This document shows positions 13,290-18,075 of a stretch of DNA of 53,513 nucleotides, in pieces. The stretch is from a virus, in the IMG/VR virus record IMGVR_UViG_3300024518_004276, positions 1 through 53,513 of that record. One strand, given 5' to 3'. The translations under genes were made by a program, and so were the position numbers. The notes under the pieces were generated by a model, which worked only from the letters and a program-made list of their open reading frames with translations, did no database searches and was not told the origin of the DNA. Each line of letters begins with the position of its first letter. Position 1 is the stretch's first letter.

Positions 13290-13519
13290 TTGTCCTCTCC
13301 AAGTGGCTGGCCGCAGGTCTCACAGACCTCTTCAATCGTGACCCCTATTTCGCCCCTCTTCACGCTGAACCTATCTCTATCCAGCCTCTTGCCGAAGAAC
13401 TCTTCGAGCTTGCTCCAAGCAGCTTGGACGGTGTCAAAAGATTCATGAGTCCACACACTGCCCCACTCATTTAGGATGACATATGCGTGCCTCATATGGA
13501 TTGCCTCGCCCACCTTCAT
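13286..13519 (-). CDS. Small hypothetical protein with C-terminal zinc knuckle
   Basis: 77 residues from ATG 13519 (GAGGAGA directly upstream). The N-terminal half is alpha/beta (AYVILNEWGSVWTHESFDT) and the end has CETCGQPLGE, a single CxxC pair. No family recognised. Overlaps both neighbours by 3-4 bases. Confidence 0.55.
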   Translation of the reverse strand: MKVGEAIHMRHAYVILNEWGSVWTHESFDTVQAAWSKLEEFFGKRLDRDRFSVKRGEIGVTIEEVCETCGQPLGEDK

Positions 13520-13668
13520 TCTCCTCTCTCAAGTATGCTGGGATCTATCCCGTGCTCCAGCAGGATGCGTCGGGCCCCTCTCTTCGCAATGACGCGCAAG
13601 CGAGCCTTGTTGGCAGCGAGCAGGGCAGTCAGTCGTGGATGGCGCACAACCATCTTTGTATCTGTCAT
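13516..13668 (-). CDS. Very small basic protein
   Basis: 50 residues, starting MTDTKMVVRHPRLTALLAAN and ending GIDPSILERGE; arginine-rich in the middle. It is joined by ATGA overlaps at both ends (13516-13519 and 13665-13668), so it fills its slot exactly. No family recognised. Confidence 0.55.
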   Translation of the reverse strand: MTDTKMVVRHPRLTALLAANKARLRVIAKRGARRILLEHGIDPSILERGE

Positions 13669-13874
13669 TCCACAATCCTTTTCACCTTAACAGTCTGAAT
13701 GGCCTCTCCCTCGCGGTGCTCAGGCATGTCTCTGCCGCAAACCAGAATGCTAATCGTCTCCTCTACTGTGCCCTCAAAAGATTGAGCATCCACCCCGACT
13801 ACCTCATTGCCTTCTGGCAAACCTAGAGCTTGGCCTATTTTTTCGTAGGTGATCTTCATGCGTCCAACCTTCAT
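13665..13874 (-). CDS. Small hypothetical protein
   Basis: 69 residues from ATG 13874 (GGAGG 7 bases upstream). The start MKVGRMKITYEKIGQALGLP suggests a short helix followed by beta strands. No family recognised. Overlaps both neighbours by 4 bases. Confidence 0.5.
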   Translation of the reverse strand: MKVGRMKITYEKIGQALGLPEGNEVVGVDAQSFEGTVEETISILVCGRDMPEHREGEAIQTVKVKRIVE

Positions 13875-14032
13875 CTCACGGCCTCCATTAAACTTTCTCC
13901 ACGCTTCACCTTAAGGCGCTTCCGTAACTCGTCTATCCGCGCCTGCTGCTCATTGCACTCAGCAATGATCTTCCTGAGATCCGACATCTCTTTGTCCCGC
14001 TTGAGCTTGGACAACATTTGCCCCATGTTCAT
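13871..14032 (-). CDS. Small coiled-coil protein
   Basis: 53 residues (MNMGQMLSKLKRDKEM..., ending SLMEAVR). The body is a charged heptad-like helix (LRKIIAECNEQQARIDELRK). ATG 14032 overlaps the upstream stop (ATGA) and the stop overlaps the next start. Function unknown. Confidence 0.55.
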   Translation of the reverse strand: MNMGQMLSKLKRDKEMSDLRKIIAECNEQQARIDELRKRLKVKRGESLMEAVR

Positions 14033-14241
14033 CGCACTACCTCTCCCTTGAATGTTTCAAGATTGATGATCGCCCAGTCGCCGCGTTCGCGCCCGGTAAC
14101 CATCACCGACTCGGCCATGCGAGGATCCTGAGCTGGCTTTCCACTCTTATCCCACATCCTCTCAATCCTGACCTGCTTGCCGTCAACCAGCGTGGCCGTA
14201 TTGGTCTTCAGATTAACAGTCTTTGCTTCAGCCGCTCTCAT
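14029..14241 (-). CDS. Small hypothetical protein
   Basis: 70 residues starting MRAAEAKTVNLKTNTATLVD. ATG 14241 lies inside a unit of the interspaced repeat array: a repeat decamer (minus strand GAGAGCACCA) supplies the upstream purine-rich ribosome binding site. The body is beta-rich (KQVRIERMWDKSGKP, MVTGRERGDWAIINLETF). No family recognised. Confidence 0.55.
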   Translation of the reverse strand: MRAAEAKTVNLKTNTATLVDGKQVRIERMWDKSGKPAQDPRMAESVMVTGRERGDWAIINLETFKGEVVR

Positions 14242-14755
14242 TGTTTGGTGCTCTCGTAGTTGGTGGCTCGCTCTTCTTGTTTGGTACCCTCTCATCCTCT
14301 GGCTCGCTCATGGGCTTTGGTACTCTCTTGTGCGCTGGCTCGCTCATCTGATCTGGTGCTCTTCGTCGCTTTGGCTCGCTCTCATTGTTTGGTACTCTCC
14401 GTCGGGCTGGCTCTCCCCCCGTTTCCTCTTTTATATGATCAAATTCACCGCGAATAACTATCCCACTATCAAACGCTACGTATCCCTTCATGACGCCGTG
14501 TCCACAGCATGCAGCCGTCACTCCCGGGAGTTTTGCTATGCATGGATCCTCCCCATCCACTGTGGGCAGGAGGCCGCACTTCGGGCAGGGCCAATCTACC
14601 TTCTTGGAGCTGCGCTCCTCTCCAGTATCCTCGTATCTCCACGGACCCTCCTGCCTTATAATGCCGTCCTCTTTCTTCATCCCAATCACTACAGCCCGCC
14701 CATAAACATAGCTGCGCACAAGCCCGGCATTCTCGTTTTTTTTATTCGCTCTCAT
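14228..14755 (-). CDS. Zinc-ribbon protein whose C-terminal tail is encoded by a repeat array
   Basis: 175 residues. Residues 1-115 resemble a small phage/bacterial zinc-binding family (PCPKCGLLPTVDGEDPCIAK, ACCGHGV). The last 60 residues are a read-through of array units, giving an SEPxxxR(V/A)Pxxx pattern. ATG 14755 sits in the last spacer of the main array, and a repeat decamer serves as its ribosome binding site. The tail may be functional, or only what the DNA array happens to encode. It follows the Tas-like gene and main array, so it may belong to that module. Confidence 0.65.
   Translation of the reverse strand: MRANKKNENAGLVRSYVYGRAVVIGMKKEDGIIRQEGPWRYEDTGEERSSKKVDWPCPKCGLLPTVDGEDPCIAKLPGVTAACCGHGVMKGYVAFDSGIVIRGEFDHIKEETGGEPARRRVPNNESEPKRRRAPDQMSEPAHKRVPKPMSEPEDERVPNKKSEPPTTRAPNNESG
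14238..14417 (-). repeat. Second interspaced (TIGR-type) array, 10 repeat decamers
   Basis: Ten decamers start every 18 bases at 14246, 14264 ... 14408 on the plus strand. Two forms alternate strictly, TGGCTCGCTC and TGG(T/C)(A/G)CTCTC, separated by variable octamers; one full unit is therefore 36 bp with two spacers. It lies inside the coding region of the zinc-ribbon gene, out of phase with the main array (352 bp between first units, not a multiple of 18). Spacer tcattgtt occurs twice here and once at the edge of the main array. Confidence 0.8.
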
Positions 14756-15687
14756 TGTTTGGTACTCTCCGTGATGTTGGCTCGCTCCTCATGAATGGCA
14801 CTCTCTGGTCTGGTGGCTCGCTCGTCCCGAATGGTGCTCTCCGGCAGTCTGGCTCGCTCACCTTTGATGGTACTCTCAGAACAAATGGCTCGCTCCTCCA
14901 TTGTGGCGCTCTCATCATGTGTGGCTCGCTCCCTGAAATTGGTACTCTCATAGTTGATGGCTCGCTCACACTTTTTGGTACTCTCTGATGCGATGGCTCG
15001 CTCAGCTACGTTGGTGCTCTCCAACTGGATGGCTTGCTCATGAGCTTTGGCACTCTCTCATCGTATGGCTCGCTCTTCTGTTATGGTGCTCTCAAGGGCC
15101 ATGGCTCGCTCCTAGATATTGGTGCTCTCGACTCGCGTGGCTCGCTCGGGGGTTGTGGTGCTCTCGTCTCGGGTGGCTCGCTCTCATTTTCTGGTACTCT
15201 CCGAACTGGTGGCTCGCTCACAATGGATGGTGCTCTCTTATGTGTTGGCTCGCTCAATAGGCGTGGCACTCTCGTTCGACTTGACTCGCTCCCGACTGTT
15301 GGTGCTCTCGAAAAGCTTGGCTCGCTCACATGGAATGGCGCTTTCTCGGTTCTTGACTCGCTCTATCTGCATGGTGCTTTCGGCTTCAATGGCTCGCTCA
15401 AATTCTCTGGCGCTCTCCGAGGAGTTGGCTCGCTCACCCCAAATGGTGCTCTCCGACGTGATGGCTCGCTCTCAGGACATGGTGCTCTCAAGTGGTGTGG
15501 CTCGCTCCAATAATGTGGCACCCTCAAAGGCCGTGGCTCGCTCGGTTCGTCTGGTACTCTCGCATTGGATGGCTCGCTCCGGGTTTGTGGTGCTCTCACA
15601 AGTAATGGCTCGCTCGCGGGTTCTGGTGCTCTCGGTAGGTGTGGCTCGCTCGCGTCCGTTGGTGCTCTCTTTCAAATTGGCTCGACT
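14742..15687 (-). repeat. Main interspaced guide-type array (TIGR array), 52 repeat decamers and 51 spacers
   Basis: Decamers begin at 14760+18k up to 15678 with no indel over 918 bp. Two forms alternate: A = TGGCTCGCTC (variants TGGCTTGCTC, TGACTCGCTC) and B = TGG(T/C)(G/A)CTCTC (rare CCCTC or CTTTC endings). Read on the minus strand, the direction of the adjacent gene, A is GAGCGAGCCA and B is GAGAGYACCA or GAGAGYGCCA. The 51 octamers between them all differ. The repeating unit A-N8-B-N8 is exactly 36 bp. This matches TIGR arrays, which are processed to 36-nt dual-spacer tigRNAs bound by Nop-domain Tas proteins. It starts at the Tas-like stop codon and ends at the next start codon. Stops occur in every minus frame, so it is unlikely to be protein coding. 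Confidence 0.88.
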
Positions 15688-16591
15688 ATGCTGCCTTCTT
15701 GCTTTTCACATCGAAGTTCGGAGGCAATATTTCATGAACGTGACCATGGCCATGTTCGAGGATGTATGGCTTCGGCGGACGCTTTCCGTAGTGGTTAAAA
15801 TACGCTACGAAATGCCAGTGGCTCATAAACAGCTTGACGGCATAACGCTTGGCCCGGGAATGGATATGGGCCGGGGGCAGCATGGGCTGGCCCTTCCCTT
15901 CCTTCACCAGCTTGGGCTTCACCACCTTGTCGGCAGCCGCCAGCTTGAGAACGCGCTCCGCCTCTTTGCGGGTGATCCGACCTGCATACCATTTATACGC
16001 ATCTGTGTTCTTGCCGATGTTGAACTTCTTCAACTTGGCCTTCGCCTGATCGGCAAAATCTCCATTCAGATTGCGTGCGATCTCCTGCTCTTTGCGCGTT
16101 TTATAAACGTCGTTGTAAATCCCGCCGCCGCCCGACCGGACGAAGCTCTCGCCGATCTTCCATTGCAGCACTTTGAGGTCAGCGTTGTAGGGGCGCTTCT
16201 GTCCCTTGCCCCATTCCTGTTCGGGGTTAACCCCAGCGAAGGACCAGATGTGGCCGACAGTTGGACACTTGGTGATATCGATGTGGGCGACCAAGCCCGC
16301 GCTCAAAACTGGGCCAATGCCCTTCACTGTCTGGGCCCACTCACAGACAGGGTGTCCGGAGGCATACATTGTGAGGGCCTTCTTGATTTCGTCTTCGATG
16401 TTCTCGACATAAAGTTGCACCCAGCTAAGGATGCCGGGAGTTTCGTCTAGAACTGCTCGGATTTGTCCAGCCGCCCGAATCCTTGCATCCTGCAGCTGGT
16501 AGTAGGCGTCGACGAGAAATCTCGCCTCTTCACGGCTCAGGCCGAGTGAGGCTTTTTTCAGATCCTCGGTTAGTTTCAATTTTTCATACAT
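15686..16591 (-). CDS. Tas-like RNA-guided protein (IS110/Nop-type domain, nuclease-less)
   Basis: 301 residues from ATG 16591 (AAGGA upstream). Residues 15-85 are helical. Residues 88-150 match the IS110 C-terminal (Transposase_20) and Nop helical domain: VKGIGPVLSAGLVAHID, then HIWSFAGVNPEQEWGKGQ. The IS110 catalytic serine position after GxxP is not Ser (EQEWGKG). No DEDD/RuvC or HNH domain is present, so it should bind rather than cut or recombine. The C-terminal 65 residues are His-rich (PPAHIHSRAKRYAVKLF, HGHGHVH). The stop codon abuts the 36-bp-period array, the arrangement of TIGR-Tas loci. A GTAAC-N5-GTTAC operator lies upstream. Confidence 0.85.
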   Translation of the reverse strand: MYEKLKLTEDLKKASLGLSREEARFLVDAYYQLQDARIRAAGQIRAVLDETPGILSWVQLYVENIEDEIKKALTMYASGHPVCEWAQTVKGIGPVLSAGLVAHIDITKCPTVGHIWSFAGVNPEQEWGKGQKRPYNADLKVLQWKIGESFVRSGGGGIYNDVYKTRKEQEIARNLNGDFADQAKAKLKKFNIGKNTDAYKWYAGRITRKEAERVLKLAAADKVVKPKLVKEGKGQPMLPPAHIHSRAKRYAVKLFMSHWHFVAYFNHYGKRPPKPYILEHGHGHVHEILPPNFDVKSKKAA

Positions 16592-16670
16592 GGGCTCAAT
16601 CCTTGTTATTTGTTCATCATTATGAGTGGGGCCAGAGCCTCGCATCGGCGAAGACAGCGACGCGAGATAC

Positions 16671-16697
16671 GGCTCGCTCTGGCCCCGTGGTGCACCA
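16671..16697 (-). repeat. Solitary degenerate array unit in the Tas-like 5' leader
   Basis: A near-perfect A decamer core (GGCTCGCTC, 16671-16679) is followed after exactly 8 bases by TGGTGCACCA, a degenerate B decamer. Spacing and order match the main array, 80 bases upstream of the Tas-like start. It may be a relic or a single guide unit. Confidence 0.45.
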
Positions 16698-16714
16698 ACT
16701 GGAGTGACACCGGG

Positions 16715-16754
16715 GAGAGGCCCGGGTGCTGGGGGGCTGGGAACCGGGCCTCTC
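16715..16754 (-). other. Perfect 11-bp GC-rich hairpin in the Tas-like leader
   Basis: GAGAGGCCCGG (16715-16725) and CCGGGCCTCTC (16744-16754) are exact inverse complements around an 18-base loop. No T-run follows on either strand, so it is not a standard terminator. It lies in the 5' untranslated leader of the Tas-like gene and may be a structured RNA element or attenuator. Confidence 0.55.
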
Positions 16755-16815
16755 TGGCGCTGCCACCCGGCAGGAGATCCAACCGGATAGGCGACACAGT
16801 TCAAAGACTATATTG

Positions 16816-16830
16816 TAACGACGAGTTACG
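16816..16830 (-). promoter_or_regulatory. Operator palindrome GTAAC-N5-GTTAC upstream of the Tas-like gene
   Basis: GTAAC GACGA GTTAC, one of four identical half-site palindromes in the window. On the minus strand TACAAT overlaps its distal half as a possible -10, but no good -35 is seen. It sits between the terminator of the Spo11-like gene and the Tas-like leader, so it probably controls the Tas/array unit. Confidence 0.6.
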
Positions 16831-16835
16831 CAACA

Positions 16836-16868
16836 AAAAAAGGCCGAGACCCCGAAGGGCCCCGACCA
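16836..16868 (-). terminator. Rho-independent terminator
   Basis: On the minus strand an 11-bp stem (GGTCGGGGCCC with GGGTCTCGGCC, three G-T wobbles) closes on a TTCG loop and is followed by seven T. It lies 45 bases after the stop of the Spo11-like gene, separating it from the Tas-like gene. Confidence 0.8.
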
Positions 16869-16913
16869 TGGGAGGAAACTCAATGGTTGGTGGTGGGCCA
16901 GAACAGTAACGTC

Positions 16914-17789
16914 TTATCCATACTCATTGGCGATAGAGTCGAGAAGCTCACACCCCTCCGCCTGTCGCTTGAGCGATTCATCCCAAGATCCCGGATCCGT
17001 TATGCCCTCAAGACATTTGCGGATCAGCCCGGCGATGACCGGAGGATCGAGAGCGTCCAGCTCCCATGAACTGTCACCGTGTTCTTGGATGTAGTCAGTC
17101 GAGCGACTGTCCGTCAACTTGGTTGGATTTGGCGGAGGAGAATACTCATCCACCTGATCCTTGTTGAGGGCAATCCTCTCCAGCTCATGGCCGCCTATGA
17201 ACAGCTTGAACCTGTCCCGCAGATCGCGAGGCATATCCATGCCGCTGGGGTCATGGTCGCCAAAATAAAAGATGATTGGCTGCTGGTCGTTTTTTTCGTG
17301 AGCCTCGGCCCTGACTGCGGCTCGCCACTGCTGCGACTGTGAGTTGTAGCCACGGCATGCATAATATGGAACCTGAAACTCTTTGCACACACCCTCGATC
17401 ACGCCGATTAACGCTTCTTTTTCGATCCAGACTTCAGGCCGATATATCTGGGTCTCCCAGAGATCGACCTTATAGCTGCTGGCCGCCGCCCGGATAATCT
17501 GAGCGGGGTCATCCCATGTCGCATGGGTGTGCCGGTTGCGCGTGCGGTCCACGATGGCCTCCCAGTCGATGTGACCGGCGAGACGGGCATCGTTGATGAT
17601 GCCGCCGAGGCGCTTGTAAGACCGCTGAGTGTTCGGGATCAGATCCCGGGCAACAAACTGATAGTACAGCTGACGCAATGTCAGATCGAAACCCTGAGCC
17701 TGATACTCGTCAATGATTGTGTTGGCGTGGCCTATCAATCCCAGACTTTCATCTCTGAAGTTTTTGTCGATGTAAGCAATTTTTGACAT
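16914..17789 (-). CDS. Spo11/TopoVI-A-like protein (stand-alone, TOPRIM-containing)
   Basis: 291 residues from ATG 17789 (AAGGAGG upstream). The N-terminal winged-helix region has the tyrosine motif LTLRQLYYQFVARDL (Y42, Y43), like the RxxYY active-site region of Spo11/TopVI-A. A TOPRIM-type domain follows: WIEKEAL with Glu123 and YFGDHDPSG with Asp178 and Asp180. There is no TopVI-B ATPase subunit nearby. Stand-alone TopVI-A-like proteins (Mini-A) are known in mobile elements. It could nick or break DNA for replication or recombination; activity is inferred. Confidence 0.75.
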   Translation of the reverse strand: MSKIAYIDKNFRDESLGLIGHANTIIDEYQAQGFDLTLRQLYYQFVARDLIPNTQRSYKRLGGIINDARLAGHIDWEAIVDRTRNRHTHATWDDPAQIIRAAASSYKVDLWETQIYRPEVWIEKEALIGVIEGVCKEFQVPYYACRGYNSQSQQWRAAVRAEAHEKNDQQPIIFYFGDHDPSGMDMPRDLRDRFKLFIGGHELERIALNKDQVDEYSPPPNPTKLTDSRSTDYIQEHGDSSWELDALDPPVIAGLIRKCLEGITDPGSWDESLKRQAEGCELLDSIANEYG

Positions 17790-17840
17790 GCATTCCTCCT
17801 TCTCTCGTTTTGTGCCTTGGCGGCACTGCACCGGCTCACC

Positions 17841-17886
17841 AAGATCGCTCGCAGGGAATGGCACCCTCGGCTTCTATGGCTCTCGT
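17841..17886 (-). repeat. Solitary array-like units upstream of the Spo11-like gene
   Basis: The pattern is degenerate A (ends CGCTC at 17850), 8 bases, TGGCACCCTC (a B variant also present in the main array), 8 bases, TGGCTCTCGT (A-like). Spacing is exactly 18 bases twice. It lies in the leader of the Spo11-like gene, 2.2 kb from the main array. Confidence 0.45.
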
Positions 17887-17907
17887 GGTGGGCCGGGTCG
17901 GTGGCGT

Positions 17908-18075
17908 CTAAGGGACGTAGAAAACTGGACCTCCATATCGGGGGTCAAACGTCTCGATGTTAGGCAGACTTTCAAGCAAGTCTGCATCGTCCAGTTTCAA
18001 GAGAGCCTTCTTGGCTTTCTCGATTGTCGTGCCGGGCTTGAATACAAGCACAGCTCCTAATTGTTTCTGGCTCAT
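17908..18075 (-). CDS. Small hypothetical protein
   Basis: 55 residues from ATG 18075 with AAGGAGG upstream. Compact alpha/beta pattern (GAVLVFKPGTTIEKAKKALL, ending GGPVFYVP). No family recognised. Overlaps the upstream stop by 4 bases. Confidence 0.6.
   Translation of the reverse strand: MSQKQLGAVLVFKPGTTIEKAKKALLKLDDADLLESLPNIETFDPRYGGPVFYVP

Follow-up and report, generated by a model that had tools for sequence, protein, structure and literature searches.

A phage-borne TIGR-TasA locus with 31 dual-spacer guides and a candidate natural target for a related prophage system

Tandem interspaced guide RNA (TIGR)-Tas systems are a recently discovered, CRISPR-like means of directing a protein to selected DNA. 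Their arrays comprise two alternating repeats of 8 to 12 nucleotides (nt) and spacers of about 9 nt, with known exceptions; they typically start with a 5'-truncated and end with a 3'-truncated edge repeat, are followed by a predicted terminator, and carry box C/D motifs that can diverge but covary (PMC12045711). Here, we describe a TIGR-TasA locus on 53,513 nt of viral DNA (IMG/VR record IMGVR_UViG_3300024518_004276, positions 1 to 53,513; the whole stretch is hereafter the window). Like FpTasA of Flavonifractor plautii, it combines a solo Nop protein with a dual-repeat array of 36-nt units and truncated edges, but its spacers are 8 rather than 9 nt long, and it holds 31 guides where TIGR arrays most often have 5 to 15 units (PMC12045711). 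Sequence, fold and array anatomy together place it securely in the TasA subgroup of TIGR-Tas, and the locus adds one more example to an already known kind. PMC12045711 leaves open the natural targets of TIGR systems, the role of nuclease-less TasA and the origin of spacers, and our literature search, with preprints and most subscription journals outside its scope, turned up no natural TIGR target. A related prophage in a soil bacterium, Acidobacteriaceae bacterium KBS 96, offers a candidate natural target that appears to be new. We consider it probable that the window carries a phage-borne TIGR-TasA whose guides block early regulatory or replication genes of competing mobile elements.

A Tas protein without a nuclease domain and its two arrays

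The initial annotation had described a Nop/IS110-type protein followed by alternating decamers on the minus strand and had proposed a nuclease-less Tas; the locus lies where it was placed (Table 1), and the protein comparisons bear the proposal out. A profile built from 51 relatives and searched against the PDB at E values up to 0.01 matched TasR (1.2e-31), TasH (1.2e-19), IS621 (1.1e-4) and ISCro4 (1e-3) and nothing else. An AlphaFold2 model of the 301-residue protein (predicted local distance difference test [pLDDT] 91.6, predicted template modeling score [pTM] 0.89) gave eleven Foldseek matches at E ≤ 0.001, all of them TasH and TasR chains. The Nop-like fold that had been suggested as a check is present in this model, which superposes (VIA-align) on TasH with a Z score of 18.2, on TasR with 17.5 and on ISCro4 and IS621 with 12.7, compared to 7.7 for the best unrelated structure. 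TasH (PDB 9w04, 9vzx and 21kl) is thus the closest solved fold, and TasR (PDB 9mty) is the closest solved sequence over the Nop domain. The model aligns to residues 64-309 of TasH, 111-322 of TasR and, in the IS621 and ISCro4 chains, from residue 125 on. Because the alignment to TasR begins at residue 111, the RuvC domain (before about residue 111) is missing from the window protein, hence the assignment to TasA; the HNH nuclease of TasH is absent too. As in TIGR-TasH of Salicola phage CGphi29, the system is phage-borne and offers 16 nt of spacer per TIGR RNA (tigRNA) (PMC12045711). A second, longer tasA frame with a TTG start has 372 residues, but alignments with most relatives begin near residue 5 of the 301-residue form.

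Two other classes were rejected. The protein shares an RNA-binding fold and a Pfam Transposase_20 match with the IS110-family recombinases IS621 and ISCro4, but that match is partial (residues 86-126 only, with no nuclease family matched), the N-terminal catalytic domain (DEDD, RuvC-like) that an IS110 transposase combines with a C-terminal Transposase_20 domain is lacking, and a many-guide array takes the place of a single bridge RNA. CRISPR-Cas has a single repeat of 25-36 nt instead of dual 10-nt repeats, and no Cas protein was found by PHROG comparison among 30 window proteins.

Each guide unit consists of an edge repeat GAGCGAGCCA, an 8-nt spacer A, a loop repeat GAGAG[CT][AG]CCA and an 8-nt spacer B, with few variant letters. 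Edge and loop are 10 nt each and the period is 36, as in the A-N8-B-N8 arrangement first described, to which all 62 spacers conform (31/31 A and 31/31 B). The minus strand of the window holds 26 exact copies each of GAGCGAGCCA and of the loop motif, compared to 0-1 and 0-2 in 20 letter-shuffles. The 26 guides of array 1 are counted from 26 loops and 25 full edges, plus one truncated edge on either side; array 2 comprises 5, from 5 loops, 4 full edges and truncated edges at both ends. The earlier count of 52 decamers and about 25 plus about 5 guides was slightly low, since we count 60 full decamers (up to two mismatches allowed) and 26 plus 5 guides. Array 1 opens at the tas stop codon with the truncated edge CGAGCCA and closes with GAGCGA; array 2 opens with AGAGCCA and closes with GAGCG. 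Both repeats start with GA and end with CCA, box C/D-type motifs common to edge and loop, whereas the repeats of TasR arrays start with UG; the CCA end is found in both systems.

Translation of the array as a repeat protein had been named as a refuting outcome. Array 1 is non-coding, as each of its six frames contains 2-19 stops, but array 2 is crossed by one open minus-strand frame, that of the inter-array open reading frame (ORF), which runs on to 14228 (window 14228-14755) and ends in ...SEPKRRRAPDQMSEPAHKRVPKPMSEP...NNESG, its stop overlapping the start of the next gene. Judged from the reading frame, array 2 may encode protein as well as guides. A repetitive protein, or a tandem repeat that does nothing, is hardly credible as an account of the repeats: the open frame of array 2 speaks in favor, but the stops in every frame already largely refute it for array 1, and same-edge arrays are found close to homologous tas genes in almost every tas-bearing locus listed below.

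The spacer B AACAATGA is seen three times (14752-14759, 14382-14389 and 14238-14245). It stands at the end of both arrays, where the next ORF (MRA...) apparently starts at its ATG. The inter-array ORF takes its ATG from the final spacer B of array 1, and the GAGAG of the loop before the AACAATGA ATG is positioned like a ribosome-binding site.

A candidate target in Acidobacteriaceae bacterium KBS 96

The 6.69-Mb scaffold of KBS 96 (KB906767.1) contains a prophage with tas at 136010-136810, a six-guide array, and genes for an HK97-type large terminase subunit (TerL), portal, protease and capsid at 147-152 kb. IMG/VR entry IMGVR_UViG_2522125054_000001 (L205) is this prophage itself and was taken out of the null set of other guides, leaving 1975. 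From the cut sites and 8-nt 3' overhangs given in PMC12045711, we deduced that a target should read, on its top strand, as spacer A followed by the reverse complement of spacer B (A+rc(B)) over 16 adjacent bp. The six guides (U0-U5) were searched exactly, with a gap of 0-2, through the whole 6.7-Mb genome, for which 0.043 exact sites are expected by chance (0.0145 at gap 0). U1 has one exact, contiguous 16/16-bp site, at 6,329,962-6,329,977; U0, U2, U3, U4 and U5 have no exact site in the genome at these gaps.

The U1 site starts at nucleotide 26 of an 86-residue HTH_17 gene that matches the PHROG "excisionase and transcriptional regulator" (phrog_66, E = 3.2e-6). It lies in an island of about 10.2 kb (6,321,951-6,332,128), bounded by 26-27-bp repeats of the tRNA-Glu end, with a second HTH_17 gene, a divergent XRE-type repressor, a tyrosine integrase beside tRNA-Glu, a 257-residue replication-like gene, a capsid gene and a prohead protease. 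The island ORFs scanned, three small ones in Pfam only and without three that overlap others (L415 7996-8514, 8533-9069 and 10011-10604), yielded neither a terminase nor a portal. In gene content the island resembles a capsid-carrying phage satellite, a label of our own. A third copy of the tRNA-Glu repeat, at 6,319,361 (G006:C1 6319361-6321951), suggests by its position the remnant of another element beside the targeted island.

Two further guides have near matches in the replication-like gene, adjacent to the U1-site gene, both at gap 0: U4 at 14/16 and U5 at 13/16 positions. Read in frame, U4 differs at a synonymous Gly codon and at the initial position of the codon that follows it (Ile to Val, provided the other two bases are unchanged), and U5 at synonymous Cys and Ala codons and by Glu/Gln. 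The island protein has no family match itself; its homologue in the TIGR prophage, encoded about 1.6 kb downstream of the array and 59% identical over residues 134-256, matches "replication initiation protein". This homologue has 7 mismatches at the U4 site and 11 at the U5 site, so the guides fit the gene of the rival and not that of their own prophage.

At gap 0, 11 of the 1975 other guides reach ≤ 2 mismatches in the island; the probability of at least two of six guides doing so is about 5e-4, and that of at least three of six at ≤ 3 mismatches is 0.015. Conditional on U1, the probability that one or more of the remaining five reach ≤ 2 mismatches is 0.028 at gap 0 and 0.086 at gaps 0-2. 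Among 300 spacer-shuffled guide sets, none had two such guides and six had one, and 30 re-paired A/B combinations and other geometries achieved 3 mismatches at best in the island. The KBS 96 sites arise in the A+rc(B) geometry only.

Several results weigh against reading these matches as targeting of rival elements. Allowing gaps of 0-2 raises the probability of two guides at ≤ 2 mismatches to 0.0045 and that of three at ≤ 3 to 0.14, and U5 by itself is unremarkable, since for 183 of the 1975 other guides the best match also has 3 mismatches. The case is a single genome in which two of the three sites are imperfect, the island was singled out by U1, and three of the six guides lack any site. 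The window guides themselves, when searched as paired octamers against their own genome and four relatives, gave no excess over re-paired controls; 30 of the 31 have no exact site in 1.87 Mb of other DNA, and the 31st, scanned through IMG/VR, found 24 loci, none backed by a second guide. Similarly, 1331 guides compared with 1.3 Mb of TIGR-phage DNA gave no more matches than re-paired controls. Exact matches in the four geometries numbered 4, 5, 7 and 2 against control means of 5.8, 4.3, 3.8 and 4.0, which places any targeting of TIGR-bearing phage DNA below the detectable rate. One guide of another Acidobacteriaceae array (G141) had no site in four genomes. The silencing or anti-competitor role guessed at the outset gains candidate-target support from the related KBS 96 prophage; for the window guides, these searches found no target.

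Further searches were made with other guides. Those of the window and G001-G005, compared in two geometries with their own and each other's genomes, showed no excess over re-paired controls; the sole exact match, of a G003 guide to the G005 genome, was in the less likely of the two. A pattern coding for YML[AT]NG, taken from the related arrays L168 and L184, occurred at 105 IMG/VR loci, of which, by eye, 13 fell in one helicase/primase-like protein family (presumably DUF927) and about 9 and 6 in two other families. The other L168 and L184 guides gave scattered short peptide matches and one near match (L320) at those loci, approximately as expected by chance. A ParB-like protein of L078 that contains YMLAN was considered as a target and judged a chance match. 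A guide common to L041, L059 and L129 was found at 18 IMG/VR loci, with no exact match there to a second guide of those arrays.

Two alternatives concern what TasA would do at such sites. It could recruit a separate nuclease or other partner, so that target DNA is destroyed and not silenced, as the existence of nuclease-bearing Tas forms (PMC12045711) and the exonucleases encoded elsewhere in the window phage might suggest. Were the system expressed, however, cutting would be difficult to square with the persistence of the KBS 96 island and its exact site. In the window, no nuclease gene was recognized next to tas, and we regard recruitment as decidedly unlikely. TasA might otherwise be an RNA-guided aid to recombination or integration through DNA bending, an idea raised in PMC12045711; the IS110 recombinases are related, TasR bends DNA sharply (PMC12045711), and U1 falls within an excisionase-like gene. 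However, 31 guides exceed what this would need and the KBS 96 sites lie in genes, not in attachment (att) repeats, and we regard such a role as very unlikely. Silencing of rival elements is the most likely use because the protein has no nuclease domain, the exact site is close to where an early operon begins, and the island survives beside the prophage.

Guide turnover, related loci and the surroundings of tasA

An IMG/VR scan by the DNA pattern GAGCGAGCCA-N26-GAGCGAGCCA alone found at least 119 loci. Homologous Tas is encoded in 82 of the 119 listed, and in 80 of these 82 at least two edges lie within 1.5 kb of tas (70 downstream, 31 upstream). When loops were specified, two more scans yielded sets of 71 and 87 loci that overlap the first set. 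From 163 loci (within L015-L220, some on one contig), 1980 distinct units were collected, accepted at ≤ 2 edge mismatches and with listed loop ends, so that near-consensus edges were selected for. Within this selected set, the edge is exactly GAGCGAGCCA in 1314 units, edge and loop mostly start with GA and end with CCA, and the middle of the loop is freer.

Guides differ between loci whose Tas proteins are close. Among the full units detected, no exact guide is common to G003 and G004 (Tas 94.2% identical), L063 and L135 (95.8%; one guide at a single difference) or L068 and L137 (96% over 175 residues), and L092 and L129 (99% over 191 residues) have one in common. L041 and L059 (91.4%) have three, and near-identical contig pairs keep most or all; the guide GACGAATG/AGGTGCAA is kept in the otherwise different arrays L041, L059 and L129. 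These comparisons bear on the possibility that the guides switch host genes or the phage's own genes on and off, rather than acting on rivals. A nuclease-less TasA bound to its target would act as a programmable repressor, a set of 31 guides could serve many genes, and U1 of KBS 96 does match a regulatory gene. Turnover far faster than that of Tas in four pairs is, however, unlike what regulatory sites need; sites for the window and G002-G005 guides are no more frequent in their own genomes than sites for re-paired controls, and five of the six KBS 96 guides have no exact chromosomal site, the sole exact site being in a mobile element. Regulation is therefore an unlikely role.

Within arrays, 22 pairs of guides look alike at ≤ 3 differences, compared to 6, 1 and 5 in re-paired controls. 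In L071 (7188-8414, reverse-complement coordinates), at least three successive units are repeated with diverged spacers; L210 (7800-8449, reverse-complement coordinates) likewise has repeated runs of units, and in these arrays one spacer is re-used with different partners. Such repeats may hint at array growth without adaptation genes. Read as A+rc(B), look-alike pairs within an array can be synonymous variants of one peptide (e.g., ATACCGCTGCAAAAGG / ATTCCGCTCCAAAAAG). An initial test across 37 pairs yielded z = 3.2 (2.1-2.8 in other geometries); under a stricter null that keeps substitution types, A+rc(B) gave 1.8, 2.4 and 1.7 (gaps 0, 0-1 and 0-2) and other geometries -0.8 to 1.4. Between-array pairs at 4 differences showed no such signal. 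Spacer differences thus appear, weakly, to follow codon logic, and the examples picked by eye overstate it.

In GTDB genomes, the array pattern found 43 stretches (by eye about 25 true arrays, 15 simple or coding repeats and 3 unclear), 9 of them with a Tas ORF; the arrays include Dehalococcoidia, Acidobacteria, Gemmatimonadetes, a Bathyarchaeota archaeon and a Colwellbacteria bacterium. A scan of GTDB genomes for close relatives of the protein found no tas. Microcystis phage Mvi-JY20 (PP438412.1; L425 3633-3975) carries an unannotated TIGR-like array of ATGCGAGCC / ACGAAACCC with spacers of about 9 nt. The array immediately follows the gene of a hypothetical protein distantly related to Tas (26.5% identity), and a hairpin and T-run come after it; this phage is possibly a tractable laboratory case. 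In L078 (3229-5202), a ParB-like protein is encoded near the TIGR array, and ParB-like proteins occur near some TasA loci (PMC12045711). In L043 (761-2242) and L119 (351-1832), Tas lies within an unusually long open frame of 494 residues.

The window corresponds, in circularly permuted form, to part of a 65.3-kb IMG/VR phage contig whose ends overlap (99.98% identity), and the 28 units listed for each are identical sets. PHROG matches in the window include portal, TerL, small terminase subunit (TerS), head closure Hc3, endolysin, RecT, Holliday junction resolvase and primase/helicase, with a topoisomerase directly upstream of tas; the portal, head-closure and terminase matches partly support the earlier suggestion of a P22-like phage. 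Scanning IMG/VR with the window TerL gave no relative besides its own phage.

Table 1. Features of the TIGR-TasA locus in the window
Feature	Position	Strand	Basis or description
tasA, 301-residue Nop-domain protein without nuclease domain	15686-16591	minus	profile and fold match to TasR/TasH
TIGR array 1, 26 guide units	14746-15685	minus	edge GAGCGAGCCA, loop GAGAGYRCCA, 8-nt spacers
TIGR array 2, 5 guide units, repeats as in array 1	14233-14417	minus	truncated edges at both ends
Inter-array ORF (MRANKKNENAG...)	14418-14755	minus	no PHROG match
Terminator-like hairpin and T-run between topoisomerase gene and tas	16842-16867	minus	hairpin scan
tas leader, predicted hairpin (arms 16628-16638 and 16676-16686)	16628-16686	minus	

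The position of tas and the arrays downstream of the terminator-like hairpin suggests that they may be under a promoter of their own. No promoter-like site was found, and terminator-like sites between 14000 and 18000 number 4, compared to 4.4 in shuffles. A simple scan found none after array 1 or array 2; loci need not all have one. Rfam gave no match at the gathering score over 13500-18000. The predicted leader hairpin holds a lone edge-like GAGCGAGCCG at 16670-16679, which is possibly a lone guide or an autoregulation site.

Proposed mechanism and significance

By analogy with work on TasR, TasH and TasA, the array would be transcribed from the tas side and cut within the edge repeats into 31 tigRNAs of 36 nt, each held by a TasA dimer. 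Spacers A and B would pair with opposite strands of the DNA, together covering 16 adjacent bp, and the target would be opened and sharply bent, yet left uncut. If KBS 96 is a guide, early regulatory and replication genes of rival phages or satellites would thereby be blocked, and guide sets would turn over much faster than the Tas protein. We tentatively extend this, with rather less assurance, to temperate-phage TIGR-TasA in general as an anti-satellite or anti-competitor weapon that spares its own homologues and whose guides are renewed quickly without adaptation genes. Renewal might proceed by duplication of units or blocks, followed by spacer divergence that follows the coding sequence of the target.

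The CRISPR-Cas system encoded by phage ICP1 reportedly acts against the satellite PLE. Should the KBS 96 reading hold, TIGR-TasA would be similar in that a phage carries guides against a satellite; unlike the ICP1 system, that of the window has no Cas genes seen, no nuclease, and two 8-nt spacers per guide.

KBS 96 is a named, sequenced isolate with both a TIGR-TasA prophage and an island bearing an exact dual-spacer site and two near sites. As prophage and island occupy one chromosome, the question of TIGR targets is open to direct test, and the candidate targeting of a rival mobile element suggests what TIGR systems are for.

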